From the NCBI RefSeq assembly GCF_019168305.1, contig NZ_JAHTBI010000001.1, positions 62,001 through 126,000 of the forward strand: a stretch of DNA of 64,000 bases. The letters are read 5' to 3'. The notes below the pieces were generated by a model. It worked only from the letters and a program-made list of their open reading frames with translations, was not told where the DNA came from and did not search any database. This document shows, piece by piece, positions 60,240 to 64,000 of this stretch (within the stretch, counting starts at the first letter, position 1; each line of letters starts with the position of its first letter). A program made the position numbers and the translations under genes. Origin of the DNA: Pseudomonas aegrilactucae. GTDB taxonomy: Bacteria > Pseudomonadota > Gammaproteobacteria > Pseudomonadales > Pseudomonadaceae.

Positions 60240-60515
60240 ATGCGTAAACCAGAACTCGCTGCAGCCATTGCCGAGAAGGCCGACCTTACCAAGGAGCAGG
60301 CCAACCGCGTGCTCAATGCGGTGCTAGAAGAAATCACCGCAGCTCTGCACAAGAAAGACAGCGTGACGCTGGTGGGTTTCGGCACGTTCCTGCAGCGTCA
60401 TCGTGGTGCGCGCACCGGCAAGAACCCGCAAACCGGTGAGCCGGTGAAGATCAAGGCCAGCAATACCGTTGCGTTCAAGCCAGGCAAGTTCCTCAAGGAC
60501 AGCGTCAATCCGTAA
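60240..60515 (+). CDS. hupA: HU-family DNA-binding protein
   Basis: A 91-residue nucleoid protein: MRKPELAAAIAEKADLTKEQ at the start, the family signature GFGTFLQRHRGARTGKNPQTGEP region (core GFGTF and RTGKNPQTGE) and a C-terminal KPGKFLKDSVN. HU bends and compacts DNA as a dimer. AGAGGGG lies before the ATG. It has its own long leader (187 bp after rubB) and a strong terminator. Confidence 0.96.
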   Translation: MRKPELAAAIAEKADLTKEQANRVLNAVLEEITAALHKKDSVTLVGFGTFLQRHRGARTGKNPQTGEPVKIKASNTVAFKPGKFLKDSVNP

Positions 60516-60571: not shown

Positions 60572-60588
60572 GTTTGTGCGTCGGCCCC

Positions 60589-60670
60589 TTCGCTGGCAAG
60601 CCAGCTCCCACAGTTACATCGCTGCCCTCAAGAACAGTGGCGCACCGGTGGGAGCTGGCTTGCCAGCGAA
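60589..60670. repeat. REPIN-like inverted repeat pair, copy 4
   Basis: Arms 60589-60612 and 60647-60670, near-identical to copy 1 with a change at the inner end of the right arm (CGGTGGGAGC), enclose a spacer of about 34 bp. It lies between the hupA terminator and the unknown gene cassette. Confidence 0.88.
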
Positions 60671-60803
60671 GGGCGCGCCGCTTTCGGTTGCCGTCCCCTG
60701 CGCTTGTGACTAGCATACGCCGCCGCCGACACCGCGCGGCGGTGTTCCAGGGAGGGAGCGGCATGATCCACTCGTCACGTATCGAACCTGTCGGCTCGCG
60801 CCC

Positions 60804-61223
60804 GTGAGCTGTACGCCTCCCTATCGCATCTACCTGTGGCTGCCCTGGGTCTGCCTGGTCACGCTGCTGGGCCTGGAGGCCTACCAGTACGGTCTGCAGG
60901 TGACCCATTTCGAACAGTTTGTGCAGATCCACCTGCTTGGCTTCGGCCTGCTGGGCTACCCCTTGTTCGCGCTGTGGGCCAGTCGTCGATTGCACCTGGC
61001 ACCCAGCCGCCTGTGGTGGGCGCCTGTGTTGTGCATCCCGTTCTACGCATTGCCCTGGGTGCTGTATGGCCTGGTCTATCTGCTGATGGGGCGCATCGTC
61101 GGCCTGGGCATGATGCTGATGTGGCTGGCCTTTCTCCCGTACCTGCTGGGTGCAGGCTACTTTTTCGTCTTCCTCGTCGCGCTGCTGCTGGCCGCGCAAA
61201 GGCGCCTGTGCAATGGACCTTGA
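60804..61223 (+). CDS. Unknown four-helix membrane protein (first gene of the cassette)
   Basis: A 139-residue hydrophobic protein with about four transmembrane segments (about residues 10-29, 40-60, 70-94 and 97-130) and basic loop residues (WASRRLHLAPSRLWW). I recognise no family. It starts at a GTG (60804) with a weak ribosome site; the next gene starts inside its last 11 bp. It opens a run of seven overlapping genes, so probably a single operon, 134 bp after a REPIN-like element and behind the conserved hupA gene. Confidence 0.7.
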   Translation: MSCTPPYRIYLWLPWVCLVTLLGLEAYQYGLQVTHFEQFVQIHLLGFGLLGYPLFALWASRRLHLAPSRLWWAPVLCIPFYALPWVLYGLVYLLMGRIVGLGMMLMWLAFLPYLLGAGYFFVFLVALLLAAQRRLCNGP

Positions 61224-61425
61224 ACTGAAGAATTACCTGGCAGGCCTGGCCGACAGCAACCTGTTCGGCAGCCTGGCGATCCTTTGCCTGCTGGCGCTGC
61301 TGCTTAACCTCAGCGAACGTCGGCGCAACACCCTGTGGGTACGCGTGCTCACGCTCGCCTGCCTGCTTGGCGTGGTGTTGCTGCACGGGGTGGGTACGTA
61401 CTGCATGAATACCCAGGTGCCGTGA
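61213..61425 (+). CDS. Unknown small two-helix membrane protein
   Basis: A 70-residue protein: MDLELKNYLAGLADSN, then two transmembrane segments (about 18-34 LFGSLAILCLLALLLNL and 42-60 VRVLTLACLLGVVLLHG) separated by SERRRNTLW, predicting a basic cytoplasmic hairpin. The ATG at 61213 overlaps the previous gene by 11 bp, and its stop overlaps the next start (TGATG). No family recognised. Confidence 0.7.
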   Translation: MDLELKNYLAGLADSNLFGSLAILCLLALLLNLSERRRNTLWVRVLTLACLLGVVLLHGVGTYCMNTQVP

Positions 61426-61751
61426 TGAAGGTGTGCATCGGCTTGCTGGTGGTGGCCGCGCTGGCTATTGGGCTGACGACGCCTCTGCCTGGCAACCTGT
61501 TCATGCTGCTGATGGACCGTGACAACTTCATCCCGCCCCAGTCCTCGCTGTTCACCTTCGAGCCCTCTCAGGTTTCCCAGGGCTCCTCGAACTACTGGCT
61601 GTACGGCGAGGACGACCACTACTACTACCACTTCACCTACGAGCCGGCCCATCCCTACCGCTACATCGCCAAGGACAATCAGTGCCCGGCGTTCGACCGG
61701 GATGATGTGCGCAGCTGGTGCAATGCGCTACAAGGAACGCCGCTGCAATGA
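61425..61751 (+). CDS. Unknown membrane-anchored or secreted protein
   Basis: A 108-residue protein with an N-terminal hydrophobic segment (about 3-31, CIGLLVVAALAIGLTTPL) acting as signal or anchor. The remainder is acidic and aromatic (YWLYGEDDHYYYHFTYEPAH, AHPYRYIAKDNQCPAFDRDD), with two Cys (QCP and WCN) that may form a disulphide, as expected for a periplasmic domain. Unknown family. Its start overlaps the upstream stop and its stop overlaps the next start (ATGA). Confidence 0.7.
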   Translation: MKVCIGLLVVAALAIGLTTPLPGNLFMLLMDRDNFIPPQSSLFTFEPSQVSQGSSNYWLYGEDDHYYYHFTYEPAHPYRYIAKDNQCPAFDRDDVRSWCNALQGTPLQ

Positions 61752-62104
61752 AGCGACAATTGCTGATCAATATCCCCCTGCACCTGCTGGCGATCGTGCT
61801 GTATGGGGTGCTCAACGACATCGCGGTGGACTGGTACAAGGGCTACTACGGCGGCTTCACCGCCCGAGGCGTGGCCTCCGGCAGCATCGTGTTCCTGGTG
61901 ATGTGGGTGTTCGTGCCGCTCAATGGGGTGCTGCCCCTGTTGACCAACTGGAAGCTCAAGTACTGGCTGGTGGCGGCGCAGGTGGCGCTGATCCTGTGGT
62001 GGCTGCTGCCGGAGCACCCGGTGCGGGCGTACTTCTTCAGTTGCCTGGCAGGCGGCCTGAGCCTGGCGGCGGTGCTGGCCTCGCACGGGCTGAGGCGTAA
62101 ATGA
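61748..62104 (+). CDS. Unknown four-helix membrane protein
   Basis: A 118-residue hydrophobic protein with about four transmembrane segments (LLINIPLHLLAIVLYGVL, IVFLVMWVFVPLNGVLPLL, WLVAAQVALILWWLL, YFFSCLAGGLSLAAVLASHG). A short polar loop (NDIAVDWYKGYYGGFTARG) follows the first. It overlaps its neighbours by four bases at both ends (ATGA). Unknown function; the size and topology recall small immunity-type membrane proteins, which is only a suggestion. Confidence 0.7.
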   Translation: MKRQLLINIPLHLLAIVLYGVLNDIAVDWYKGYYGGFTARGVASGSIVFLVMWVFVPLNGVLPLLTNWKLKYWLVAAQVALILWWLLPEHPVRAYFFSCLAGGLSLAAVLASHGLRRK

Positions 62105-62652
62105 GCAGGCCGACGGTAAAGCAGCAACTGTGGCGCTGGCTGGTCGTGCTTGGCGTTGCGGCGTGGATCGGTCTGCAGATTCACGCGTTGCTCCAGGCCC
62201 CTGGTGGTACGTCGTTCGTCAGCGAGTCGGGTCGCTACCGCTTCCAGAACGTGCCAGCACGCAGTTGGCTGATACCGTTCGGCGGCATGGGCTACCTGCG
62301 CGTGACCGATCGCGAGCGCCCTGGCGAGGTATGGCGCACGCCGCTGTATGACCTGCAGTCACTGGATATGCGCGACTTCGAAGACGAAGGCAAAGTGGGG
62401 ATCTACTGGATCACCTTCTACAAGGCTGACCGCCATTTCGACATCGCCATGCCTCAATGGGAACCGCACTGGCTGAACAGCTTCATCGCCAATACCGATT
62501 ACGAGGTCGCCGAAGACCAGGCCCGCTGCCGCAAGCCCGAGCATCTGGTGCGCTATATCTGGGACTTGTGGCTGTGGCTGGTGTGGGTCAGCGACTACCC
62601 CTGCACGCAAACCGAGTACTACATCAATCCGCCGCCGGTGTACCGCCCATGA
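62101..62652 (+). CDS. Unknown single-anchor membrane protein
   Basis: A 183-residue protein: basic start, one transmembrane segment (about 10-30, LWRWLVVLGVAAWIGLQIHA), then a soluble domain of about 150 residues rich in Trp, Tyr, Arg and Asp (SGRYRFQNVPARSWLIPFGG, YWITFYKADRHFDIAMPQW), ending with WDLWLWLVWVSDYPCTQTE and a Cys pair (RCRK, YPCT). Probably periplasmic. Overlaps both neighbours by four bases. Unknown family. Confidence 0.7.
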   Translation: MSRPTVKQQLWRWLVVLGVAAWIGLQIHALLQAPGGTSFVSESGRYRFQNVPARSWLIPFGGMGYLRVTDRERPGEVWRTPLYDLQSLDMRDFEDEGKVGIYWITFYKADRHFDIAMPQWEPHWLNSFIANTDYEVAEDQARCRKPEHLVRYIWDLWLWLVWVSDYPCTQTEYYINPPPVYRP

Positions 62653-63611
62653 AATGGAATGTTCTGATGCTGATGGCCGGTTTGCTGGCGAGCGCGTGCG
62701 CGAAGGCCGCACCCGCTTGCCCTGAGGGTGACTTTCCCGCGTTTGTCGAGGCGTTTGCCGAGGACACAGCGGTTCAAACGGCATTTACTGCGCACACCCT
62801 GGTGCAACAGCGCGTGTATCGCGGCCCCAATGAGCCGCAACTGGCCGTGCGCAAACTGGAGCCGGCCCTGCATCCGGACCTCTCATGGCTGTCGGCCACC
62901 CAATTGGCCGCCAACCAGCTGGTAGTCGACATCCAGCTACCAGACCGCGTGTATGTGCGCGATCAGCTTGGGCTGACCCTCAAGGCGTTCATCTTCACCC
63001 GGGCCGATTGCTGGACCCTGACGCGTGTAGAAGACTGGTCGCCCGCTGCCGCGCTGCGCCTCGGCATCGCAGGGCCGGGCGCACAAGCCCAGCTGCGCGG
63101 GGACGCCTATGAGGCGATGGCCAACGGCGTGGATCCTGTCGATCCGCAGTTGCACGTCGCCGCGCTCAACAGCTACCTCGACGCAGCACAGCAGGGCTCG
63201 AGCACGGGAGCTTACAGGGCTGCGGCGCTCAGCCTCTCTGGCATGGCGCCGCGGCTGAGCAATGCGCGCATCGAGCAGCTGCTGGACGGCGCCGTGGATA
63301 CGTATCCCCCGGCAGGCTCGTTTCTTGCCACCTTCTATTGCGATGAGGGCGAGCCCCAACCCGAAGGTACCTGCCTGCACCCGCAAAAGGCGTTGCAAGC
63401 GCTGCGTCGGTGGGCGGCATCGGGCGGCGAGGCGGCGTTCAAGGAACTGGGTCTGGCCTATGAGCGAGGTGCCATCACGCCCGCTCAGCCTGCTCGGGCA
63501 CTGGCGTGTTATCAACAGGCAATCAGGCAGGGCGAGGACGCGGTGCAGGTCGACGCTCAGCGCCTGACCGACCGGGGTGTCGTCGTCGATGAGCGCCAGC
63601 CATGCCTGTGA
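62649..63611 (+). CDS. Secreted Sel1-repeat-like protein of unknown function
   Basis: A 320-residue exported protein: signal peptide ending near CAKAAPA (SPase I site AKA, or a weak lipobox at Cys17). The mature N-terminal region of about 120 residues (CPEGDFPAFVEAFAEDTAVQ, LPDRVYVRDQ, AFIF, CWTLTRVEDW) is shared with the next gene. The C-terminal part contains Sel1-like helical repeats (ALQALRRWAASGGEAAFKEL, GLAYERGAITPAQPARALAC). Overlaps upstream by 4 bp and downstream by 10 bp. Confidence 0.75.
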   Translation: MKWNVLMLMAGLLASACAKAAPACPEGDFPAFVEAFAEDTAVQTAFTAHTLVQQRVYRGPNEPQLAVRKLEPALHPDLSWLSATQLAANQLVVDIQLPDRVYVRDQLGLTLKAFIFTRADCWTLTRVEDWSPAAALRLGIAGPGAQAQLRGDAYEAMANGVDPVDPQLHVAALNSYLDAAQQGSSTGAYRAAALSLSGMAPRLSNARIEQLLDGAVDTYPPAGSFLATFYCDEGEPQPEGTCLHPQKALQALRRWAASGGEAAFKELGLAYERGAITPAQPARALACYQQAIRQGEDAVQVDAQRLTDRGVVVDERQPCL

Positions 63612-64000
63612 TCCTGCTGGCGCTGCTGCTGATGAGCGTGGGCGTTCAGGCTGCGCCCAGCTGTCCGAGTCAGGATTTCACCACGTTTTTCAATGCGTTT
63701 GCAGAAAGCACCGAGCTGCAGCACGCCTTTGCCGCGCCCACGCTGAGCGAGCAGGGCATGCCGTCGGACCTGACGCAGTTGTCCATGGCGCGGGTGGTGG
63801 CGAACGGGCGGGTACGTGAAATCGTGCTGCCTGACAGGGTGTACCTGCGCGACCAGCGCGGCGAAGTGCTGCAGGCGTTCATCTTCGAGCAGGCAGGGTG
63901 CTGGACCCTCGAGCGGTTCGAGGACTGGGCGCCGATGATTGCACTCACGTCTGTCGATACTGCTCAGCGGGGCCAGCGTGCGCTGCTGCGCGGCAAGGAA
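63602..64000 (+). CDS. Paralogue of the preceding secreted protein, truncated by the window end
   Basis: The open frame from the ATG at 63602 runs off the window after 133 codons without a stop. A signal peptide (MPVILLALLLMSVGVQA) precedes a domain homologous to the previous protein: CPSQDFTTFFNAFAESTELQ, LPDRVYLRDQ, AFIF, CWTLERFEDW and LLRGKE align with the partner residues. It is a tandem duplicate; whether it also ends in Sel1-like repeats lies beyond the window. Confidence 0.75.
   Translation, partial: MPVILLALLLMSVGVQAAPSCPSQDFTTFFNAFAESTELQHAFAAPTLSEQGMPSDLTQLSMARVVANGRVREIVLPDRVYLRDQRGEVLQAFIFEQAGCWTLERFEDWAPMIALTSVDTAQRGQRALLRGKE

Follow-up and report, generated by a model that had tools for sequence, protein, structure and literature searches.

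What do nine tightly packed, unannotated genes do behind the hup gene of Pseudomonas aegrilactucae, and how did they come to lie there? The window analysed here is a stretch of 64,000 nucleotides (positions 62001-126000 of contig 1, NZ_JAHTBI010000001.1) from a draft genome of 5.70 Mb (GCF_019168305.1; 187 contigs, 99.96% complete; labelled G000). The genes, named g1 to g9, all lie on the + strand, from position 60804 of the window to beyond its end, and very probably form an orphan islet of type VI secretion system (T6SS) immunity genes, which would protect the cell against toxins that it does not make. All nine have homologs in the T6SS clusters of other Pseudomonas, several of them directly after effector genes, and neither effector nor secretion genes were found within the islet itself. 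The initial annotation of the first seven genes had guessed at type VI immunity or an envelope-stress module; these homologs bear out the first guess, and nothing was found in support of the second. The immunity-type identity of the cassette is well supported.

Cassette homologs beside effector genes

Homologs of g1, g2, g3, g4/g8 and g5 are located between tssE and tssF, behind the PAAR gene where present, and those of g6/g7 and g9 at the opposite end of the cluster, beside vgrG and large effectors. VgrG, TssE and PAAR only were confirmed by profile, SCP2 being at the edge of the cut-off (21.2 vs 21.3 bits); the labels hup, HDOD, recG, rubredoxin reductase and most of the tss genes are presumed from sequence and gene order.

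The clearest count concerns g5 (62101-62652; 183 amino acids (aa), one N-terminal helix and a predicted beta domain), whose family is found after PAAR-DUF6402 genes. As loci picked via g5 favour g5, this linkage was counted on a sample chosen without it. DUF6402 (PF19940) occurs in 34 of 298 genomes. Among the best 30 of 40 places, PAAR lies directly upstream of DUF6402 in 23 loci, and the next recognised gene after the PAAR-linked DUF6402 is a g5 homolog in 17 of these 23. In these 17 loci, the start of the g5 homolog lies between -4 and +80 bp relative to the effector stop, with an overlap of 1 or 4 bp in 12, and no g5 homolog was found in the seven DUF6402 loci without PAAR (1.5-2.1 kb examined). 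In three other PAAR-DUF6402 loci (L189, L191, L192), the first recognised gene downstream is a homolog of g2 (61213-61425; 70 aa, a predicted two-helix membrane protein, immunity-like), 435-868 bp off, followed by a gene of either the g4/g8 type or that of the g8 N-terminal half; in L194 a g4/g8 homolog was recognised, and no cassette-family gene was recognised before tssF in L193 and L195. A g2 homolog also lies directly after a 268-aa PAAR partner in one case (L084). The PAAR-linked DUF6402 proteins comprise two subtypes about 24% identical (L140:9033-9974 and L095:3166-4140), of which one tends to precede g5 and the other g2 and g4/g8. DUF6402 was not mentioned in any paper found in our literature search, and its structure model was too poor for use (predicted local distance difference test, pLDDT, 45.7).

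The family of g4 (61748-62104; 118 aa, three to four transmembrane segments) abuts a 283-aa PAAR-linked protein that occurs in 11 of 398 genomes (examples: L087:7964-8815, L092:9536-10387, L093:8745-9605 and L101:6850-7698). A g4/g8 homolog abuts it in 11 of 11, with match ends -144 to +27 bp apart, the g4/g8-like places being compared within these 11 effector-bearing genomes; the g8/g4 family itself has matches in 70 of the 398 genus genomes, including its own. The 283-aa protein has no Pfam match and, judging from its neighbours, is likely an undescribed T6SS effector family. The second member of the pair in our cassette, g8 (64501-65205, beyond the window; 234 aa), has a C-terminal membrane part 39% identical to g4. 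Its soluble N-terminal half is found without the membrane half beside tssF (L095, L097), and g8 therefore looks like a fusion of two modules.

For g9 (65202-66065, beyond the window; 287 aa), the linkage is with large effectors. Among 32 g9-like open reading frames (ORFs) from 16 loci, seven start 4-8 bp ahead of the stop of an ORF of 466-1059 aa, and these seven large ORFs are mutually related. The L051 effector matches PDB 8xcl at its C-terminus (E 6.2e-61), and this structure is TseP-C (PMC11893102). Four more effectors, those of L042, L043, L049 and L050, can be aligned to this C-terminal region of L051 (E 2e-34 or better). In Aeromonas dhakensis, both activities of TseP are reported to be blocked by TsiP (PMC11893102). 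The arrangement found here resembles TseP-TsiP in that a relative of g9 lies directly behind an effector with a TseP-C-like C-terminus, most clearly in L051; the likeness is one of gene position and effector match.

The remaining genes are placed by their neighbourhood. Homologs of g1 (60804-61223; 139 aa, a predicted multi-helix inner-membrane protein) lie between tssE and tssF in eight loci (L083, L084, L088, L090, L092, L096, L097 and L100), and those of g3 (61425-61751; 108 aa, an N-terminal anchor and a small domain) in L084, L088 and L090; g1 and g3 are immunity-like from this position only. A further g3 homolog was found in L091, on a stretch where no T6SS gene is labelled. Homologs of g6 (62649-63611; 320 aa, predicted to be secreted) begin 4 bp ahead of the vgrG stop in L037 and L050, where the L050 vgrG part is 91% identical to that of L037. 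The paralog g7 (63602-64510) has its 5' part within the window (to 64000), and the remainder was read from the contig extension (L004).

Small relatives of the cassette also occur outside T6SS clusters (L091, L094, L098 and L099). One of them (L094:7315-9627, in G071) is an islet made up of two g4/g8-type genes, one unknown gene and one g6-like gene; none of the genes labelled on its stretch belongs to a T6SS. At the effector end of another cluster, L039:10461-14315 codes for a TIGR01777 epimerase and for a protein of 816 aa that has PEP-synthase-like stretches.

The hup-SCP2 slot and the origin of the cassette

The slot between rubredoxin reductase-hup and SCP2-HDOD-recG is the site of a T6SS cluster in some other Pseudomonas. 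The T6SS fills it end to end in G216 (L039, L040, L083), T6SS genes come after hup in L132, L135, L137 and L141, and in L041, L043 and L045-L050 genes of the effector end adjoin SCP2. The hup-SCP2 interval thus ranges from about 0.15 kb up to an entire T6SS cluster, which agrees with the initial annotation, where the site behind hup had been taken as a plausible variable insertion point. In a survey of 20 related genomes, taken from the top of a longer list and thus not a random sample, the distance from hup to SCP2 is 132-239 bp in 10 genomes, and one carries g9 and g6 there; in the remaining nine, hup is off the fetched stretch, and one of these shows T6SS PppA and kinase genes. No paper in our literature search dealt with as many as four of the subjects T6SS, Pseudomonas, hupB, recG and PAAR together, and the part available to us of a paper on the K1-T6SS of P. 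putida (PMC9993120) held nothing on this locus.

Searching named genomes with the g5 profile yielded 22 loci, and in 17 of these the stretch also carries T6SS genes. The other five, in P. brassicae, P. palmensis, P. donghuensis, P. wadenswilerensis and P. rubra, are cassettes on whose stretch no T6SS gene is labelled (the P. brassicae contig begins just ahead of g1, with hup out of view).

We read the slot, tentatively and with more reserve than the immunity function, as a memory of past T6SS warfare. The weapon would have been lost or moved, and immunity genes from both the PAAR end and the vgrG end would have been kept and compacted into one operon; g1-g5 and g8 would then be undescribed immunity families for two PAAR-linked effectors (DUF6402 and the 283-aa protein), giving protection without the toxins. 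Alternatively, the islet might have been gathered bit by bit through horizontal transfer into a permissive site, without ever having been part of a T6SS in this lineage; its immunity function would be the same and its origin different. This is a serious possibility, although we lean away from it, and as accounts of origin the departed T6SS and the piecemeal collection may be given about equal weight.

Piecemeal gathering is favoured by the slot being empty in 10 of the 20 related genomes and by gene sets that vary between species (g4 alone in G015, g9 and g6 in G089, six genes in G096 and G007). No remnant of a T6SS was found in the slot either: searches for fragments of tss or effector genes in the cassette gave none that was convincing (best E 0.31 in the own cassette, 0.015 in that of G226), which counts against a departed T6SS, and because no such fragment is detectable, the case for T6SS loss from the slot is one of synteny. 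Piecemeal gathering is disfavoured by this slot being the T6SS slot of some other Pseudomonas. Moreover, the cassette copies group on one side of a branch for g3 (support 100/99), g4 (92/91) and g8 (91/75), and weakly for g5 (55/51), with L091 left out of the final tree, and this suits one old origin. The GC content at third codon positions (GC3) also matches the host, since the cassette genes range from 0.75 to 0.92 and bracket the window mean of 0.831; in four T6SS-embedded homologs elsewhere it is 0.48-0.75, not corrected for their hosts. The acquired interbacterial defence (AID) systems of Bacteroidales, a model for such gathering, are alike in that orphan immunity genes protect against the T6SS effectors of neighbours, according to the parts of the papers available to us (PMC10470768, PMC12247911). 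In contrast to these, g5 has no match in the plasmid collection. No g4 match was found in phages; integrases and tRNAs were not searched for.

Probable orphan status in the own genome

The cassette might guard against effectors of the cell itself, encoded elsewhere and delivered by its own T6SSs, and would then not be orphan. The genome does hold T6SS loci, with sheath genes on contigs C46, C21 and C90 and vgrG on C23, C46 and C90; TssC on C46 was found at 97% identity. In L112 (G000:C46:1-19999), we observed a T6SS of the same class as the hup-slot T6SS of other Pseudomonas, in which the end of the contig cuts vgrG. The tssF gene of this C46 system comes immediately after tssE, as in G226 and G015, and this speaks for the orphan reading.

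The searches for absent effectors covered the DUF6402, 283-aa and TseP types. The 283-aa effector has no match in G000 in a search of 398 genomes with positives elsewhere. For DUF6402, a PF19940 profile search of G000 gave no match (without positive control), and a protein query of 10 genomes, with positives in G148 and G105, gave none in G000, G226, G076, G096, G007 and G015. The L047 effector, as a query of 10 genomes with positives in G100, G148 and G203, has no match in these same six or in G089. This query would miss effectors with a TseP-like C-terminus only, and the L051 effector was used as well. In the same 10 genomes, full or N-terminal matches to L051 were found only in G100, G148 and G203; the lysozyme domain alone was matched in six genomes including G000 (ORFs of 184-246 aa), G076 also shows a weak match to the middle part with two stops, and G015 has no match.

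Two facts bear against orphan status here. The fragmentation of the draft into 187 contigs and the vgrG cut at the end of C46 leave some doubt on the absence of effectors, and the lysozyme-domain matches of G000 correspond to three 183-aa proteins on C53, C35 and C79 (endolysin-type genes at L198:5979-6530, L199:2287-2838 and L200:5721-6272). In PHROGs, all three are endolysins (E 1e-70 or better), an Rz-like spanin gene lies beside both of the endolysin genes tested, and tail genes are nearby; because of this assignment and these neighbours, we read them as lysis genes of phages or tailocins. Less probably, there may be a lysozyme-only effector among the three. With no G000 match for DUF6402, for the 283-aa protein or for the N-terminal part of the TseP-related effectors, protection against the cell's own effectors appears unlikely.

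Gene organisation, products and selection

The slot's conserved left border is hup (60240-60515, + strand; HU DNA-binding protein, 91 aa, 96-98% identical in relatives where called). Between it and the cassette lies a REP-like inverted repeat pair (60578-60681; arms 60578-60624 and 60635-60681, 47 nt, 81% complementary), where a repeat element had been reported beside hup in the initial annotation. On the right, a gap of 72 bp separates g9 from the SCP2-like gene (66138-66515, + strand), which is followed by the HDOD gene and recG.

The seven frames and six overlapping junctions first described are all present, with overlaps from g1 to g7 of 11, 1, 4, 4, 4 and 10 bp. Extension past 64000, where the initial annotation had suggested that an effector or further partners may lie, added g8 and g9 (overlapping by 10 bp with g7 and by 4 bp with g8, respectively), for nine genes in total, but no effector. 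Overlap is therefore seen at all eight internal junctions of the cassette, but in positions 1-60600 of the window at only 3 of the 26 junctions that join called genes of at least 100 aa on the same strand; the gene caller used for this count is slightly biased towards overlaps of 1 and 4 bp. The nine genes are probably one transcript. No sigma-70-like promoter was found for the cassette, the chance expectation being 0.9.

At a hydropathy threshold of 1.6, four helices are predicted in g1, two in g2, three in g4, two in g8 and one near the N-terminus in g3 and g5, with one signal-like N-terminus each in g6 and g7 and none in g9; at 1.3, g1 has five helices, g4 and g8 have four, and g9 gains a signal-like stretch. 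The homology of the two secreted proteins holds (g6 and g7 are 50% identical), but the Sel1-like repeat is weak: a single stretch of g6 (E 0.003) scores 18.5 bits, below the Pfam gathering cut-off of 30.7, and g7 has no Pfam match. Scans of the cassette proteins with Pfam, NCBIfam and PADLOC gave nothing above cut-off, and no family of known function was matched, so that the match named in the initial annotation as a refutation did not appear. In PHROGs, g6 and g7 weakly match phrog_8741, to which no function is assigned there. Sequence searches of the PDB with g9, g7 and g5 (g9 and g5 also as profiles) returned only TPR/Sel1-like repeats, and the g4/g8 profile had no match. The structure model of g5 (pLDDT 77, predicted template modelling score 0.67) has no close known fold by Foldseek (best E 0.028) or VIA-align (best Z 6.1 over 72 residues, rmsd 2.8), which does not in itself show the fold to be new.

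The g9 family has matches in 63 of the 398 genus genomes, including its own, with more than 50% identity only in G226 and G076. These two genomes hold the closest cassettes, in which a single g6/g7-type gene, nearer to g7, stands in place of the pair. Gene order is otherwise kept, so the possibility raised earlier of an order broken in close relatives applies to this one gene in both genomes and to a frame-broken g9 in G076. The cassette genes are under purifying selection relative to G226 and G076: the ratio of nonsynonymous to synonymous substitution rates (dN/dS) is 0.11-0.38 for g1-g5, g7 and g8, and for g9 against G226 (g6 was left out, having no separate counterpart there), compared with 0.10-0.14 for SCP2. 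Since their frames are conserved in related species at these ratios, the genes are not chance ORFs. Between the cassettes of G096 and G007, dN/dS is 0.16-0.31; against these two distant cassettes, g3 and g5 of P. aegrilactucae give 0.20-0.33.

An envelope complex of several subunits that plays no part in antagonism, and whose T6SS-linked homologs were a secondary recruitment, would suit the tight overlaps, the mostly conserved order in three close genomes and the lack of an experimental function, but it is made very improbable by the content that varies between species, the homologs behind effectors and the patchy distribution, such as that of the g9 family.

Proposed mechanism and points that weigh against it

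Building on the gene linkage, the effector searches and the selection, we propose that toxins carried on PAAR or VgrG and injected by T6SS-armed Pseudomonas competitors would reach the periplasm or the inner membrane. There, they would meet cassette proteins predicted to reside in the inner membrane (g1, g2, g4, g8), to be membrane-anchored (g3, g5) or to be secreted into the periplasm (g6, g7, g9). These proteins would bind the toxin or shield its target in the manner of cognate immunity proteins, and cells without the toxin gene would be protected. In this scheme, g9 would block TseP-like amidase-lysozymes and g5 would block DUF6402 effectors; g4 and g8 are multi-helix proteins and therefore suggest membrane-acting toxins. 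The immunity genes would have been left or collected in the slot while the T6SS loci of the clade lie elsewhere.

Several points weigh against this scheme. Toxin binding or neutralisation by the cassette proteins is what we infer from sequence and gene position. The assignment of g1, g3, g6 and g7 to immunity comes from neighbourhood, with no effector link for g1 and g3, and the count of 17 in 23 for g5 concerns the best of the DUF6402 places. The effectors of L047 and L040 have no match to L051 in their C-terminal parts, and these two therefore share only other parts with the TseP-like effectors. Adaptors, too, occur at the site between vgrG and an effector. Because g6-like secreted proteins are located between vgrG and a large effector (L037:4858-5886, L050:12321-13349), the function of this family might be something else than immunity. 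Against the distant G096 and G007, dN/dS reaches 0.53-0.91 for g2 and g4 and 0.41-0.54 for g6. In G076, a draft of 650 contigs, g9 (L036:3728-4478) is split over several frames, as a pseudogene or through an assembly error.

Relation to known orphan immunity islets

Two further systems resemble the orphan immunity islet proposed here. SAIDI-1 of Salmonella Typhi is a T6SS and contact-dependent inhibition islet of mostly orphan immunity genes (PMC7400221). It is likewise a chromosomal run of small genes whose homologs lie directly downstream of effectors, with these effectors absent from the genome (PMC7400221). It differs in host and site, and our cassette consists of nine tightly overlapping genes, all with T6SS-cluster homologs, in the T6SS slot of some relatives. 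In Vibrio cholerae, orphan arrays of immunity genes are kept after their effectors have been displaced, and effector displacement is the proposed origin of these arrays (PMC5361080). They lie in the 3' region of T6SS clusters, whereas no T6SS gene was found at the site studied here.

The cassette adds an example to the known orphan immunity islets, built from families without a Pfam match above cut-off. Through it, a number of unannotated protein families of the membrane and periplasm are linked to T6SS antagonism, three of them with likely toxin partners: DUF6402, the 283-aa PAAR-linked protein and the TseP-related lysozymes. In environmental Pseudomonas, it would represent a case of immunity genes present at a T6SS locus without the weapon, and may thus bear on why bacteria keep antidotes to toxins that they do not make.

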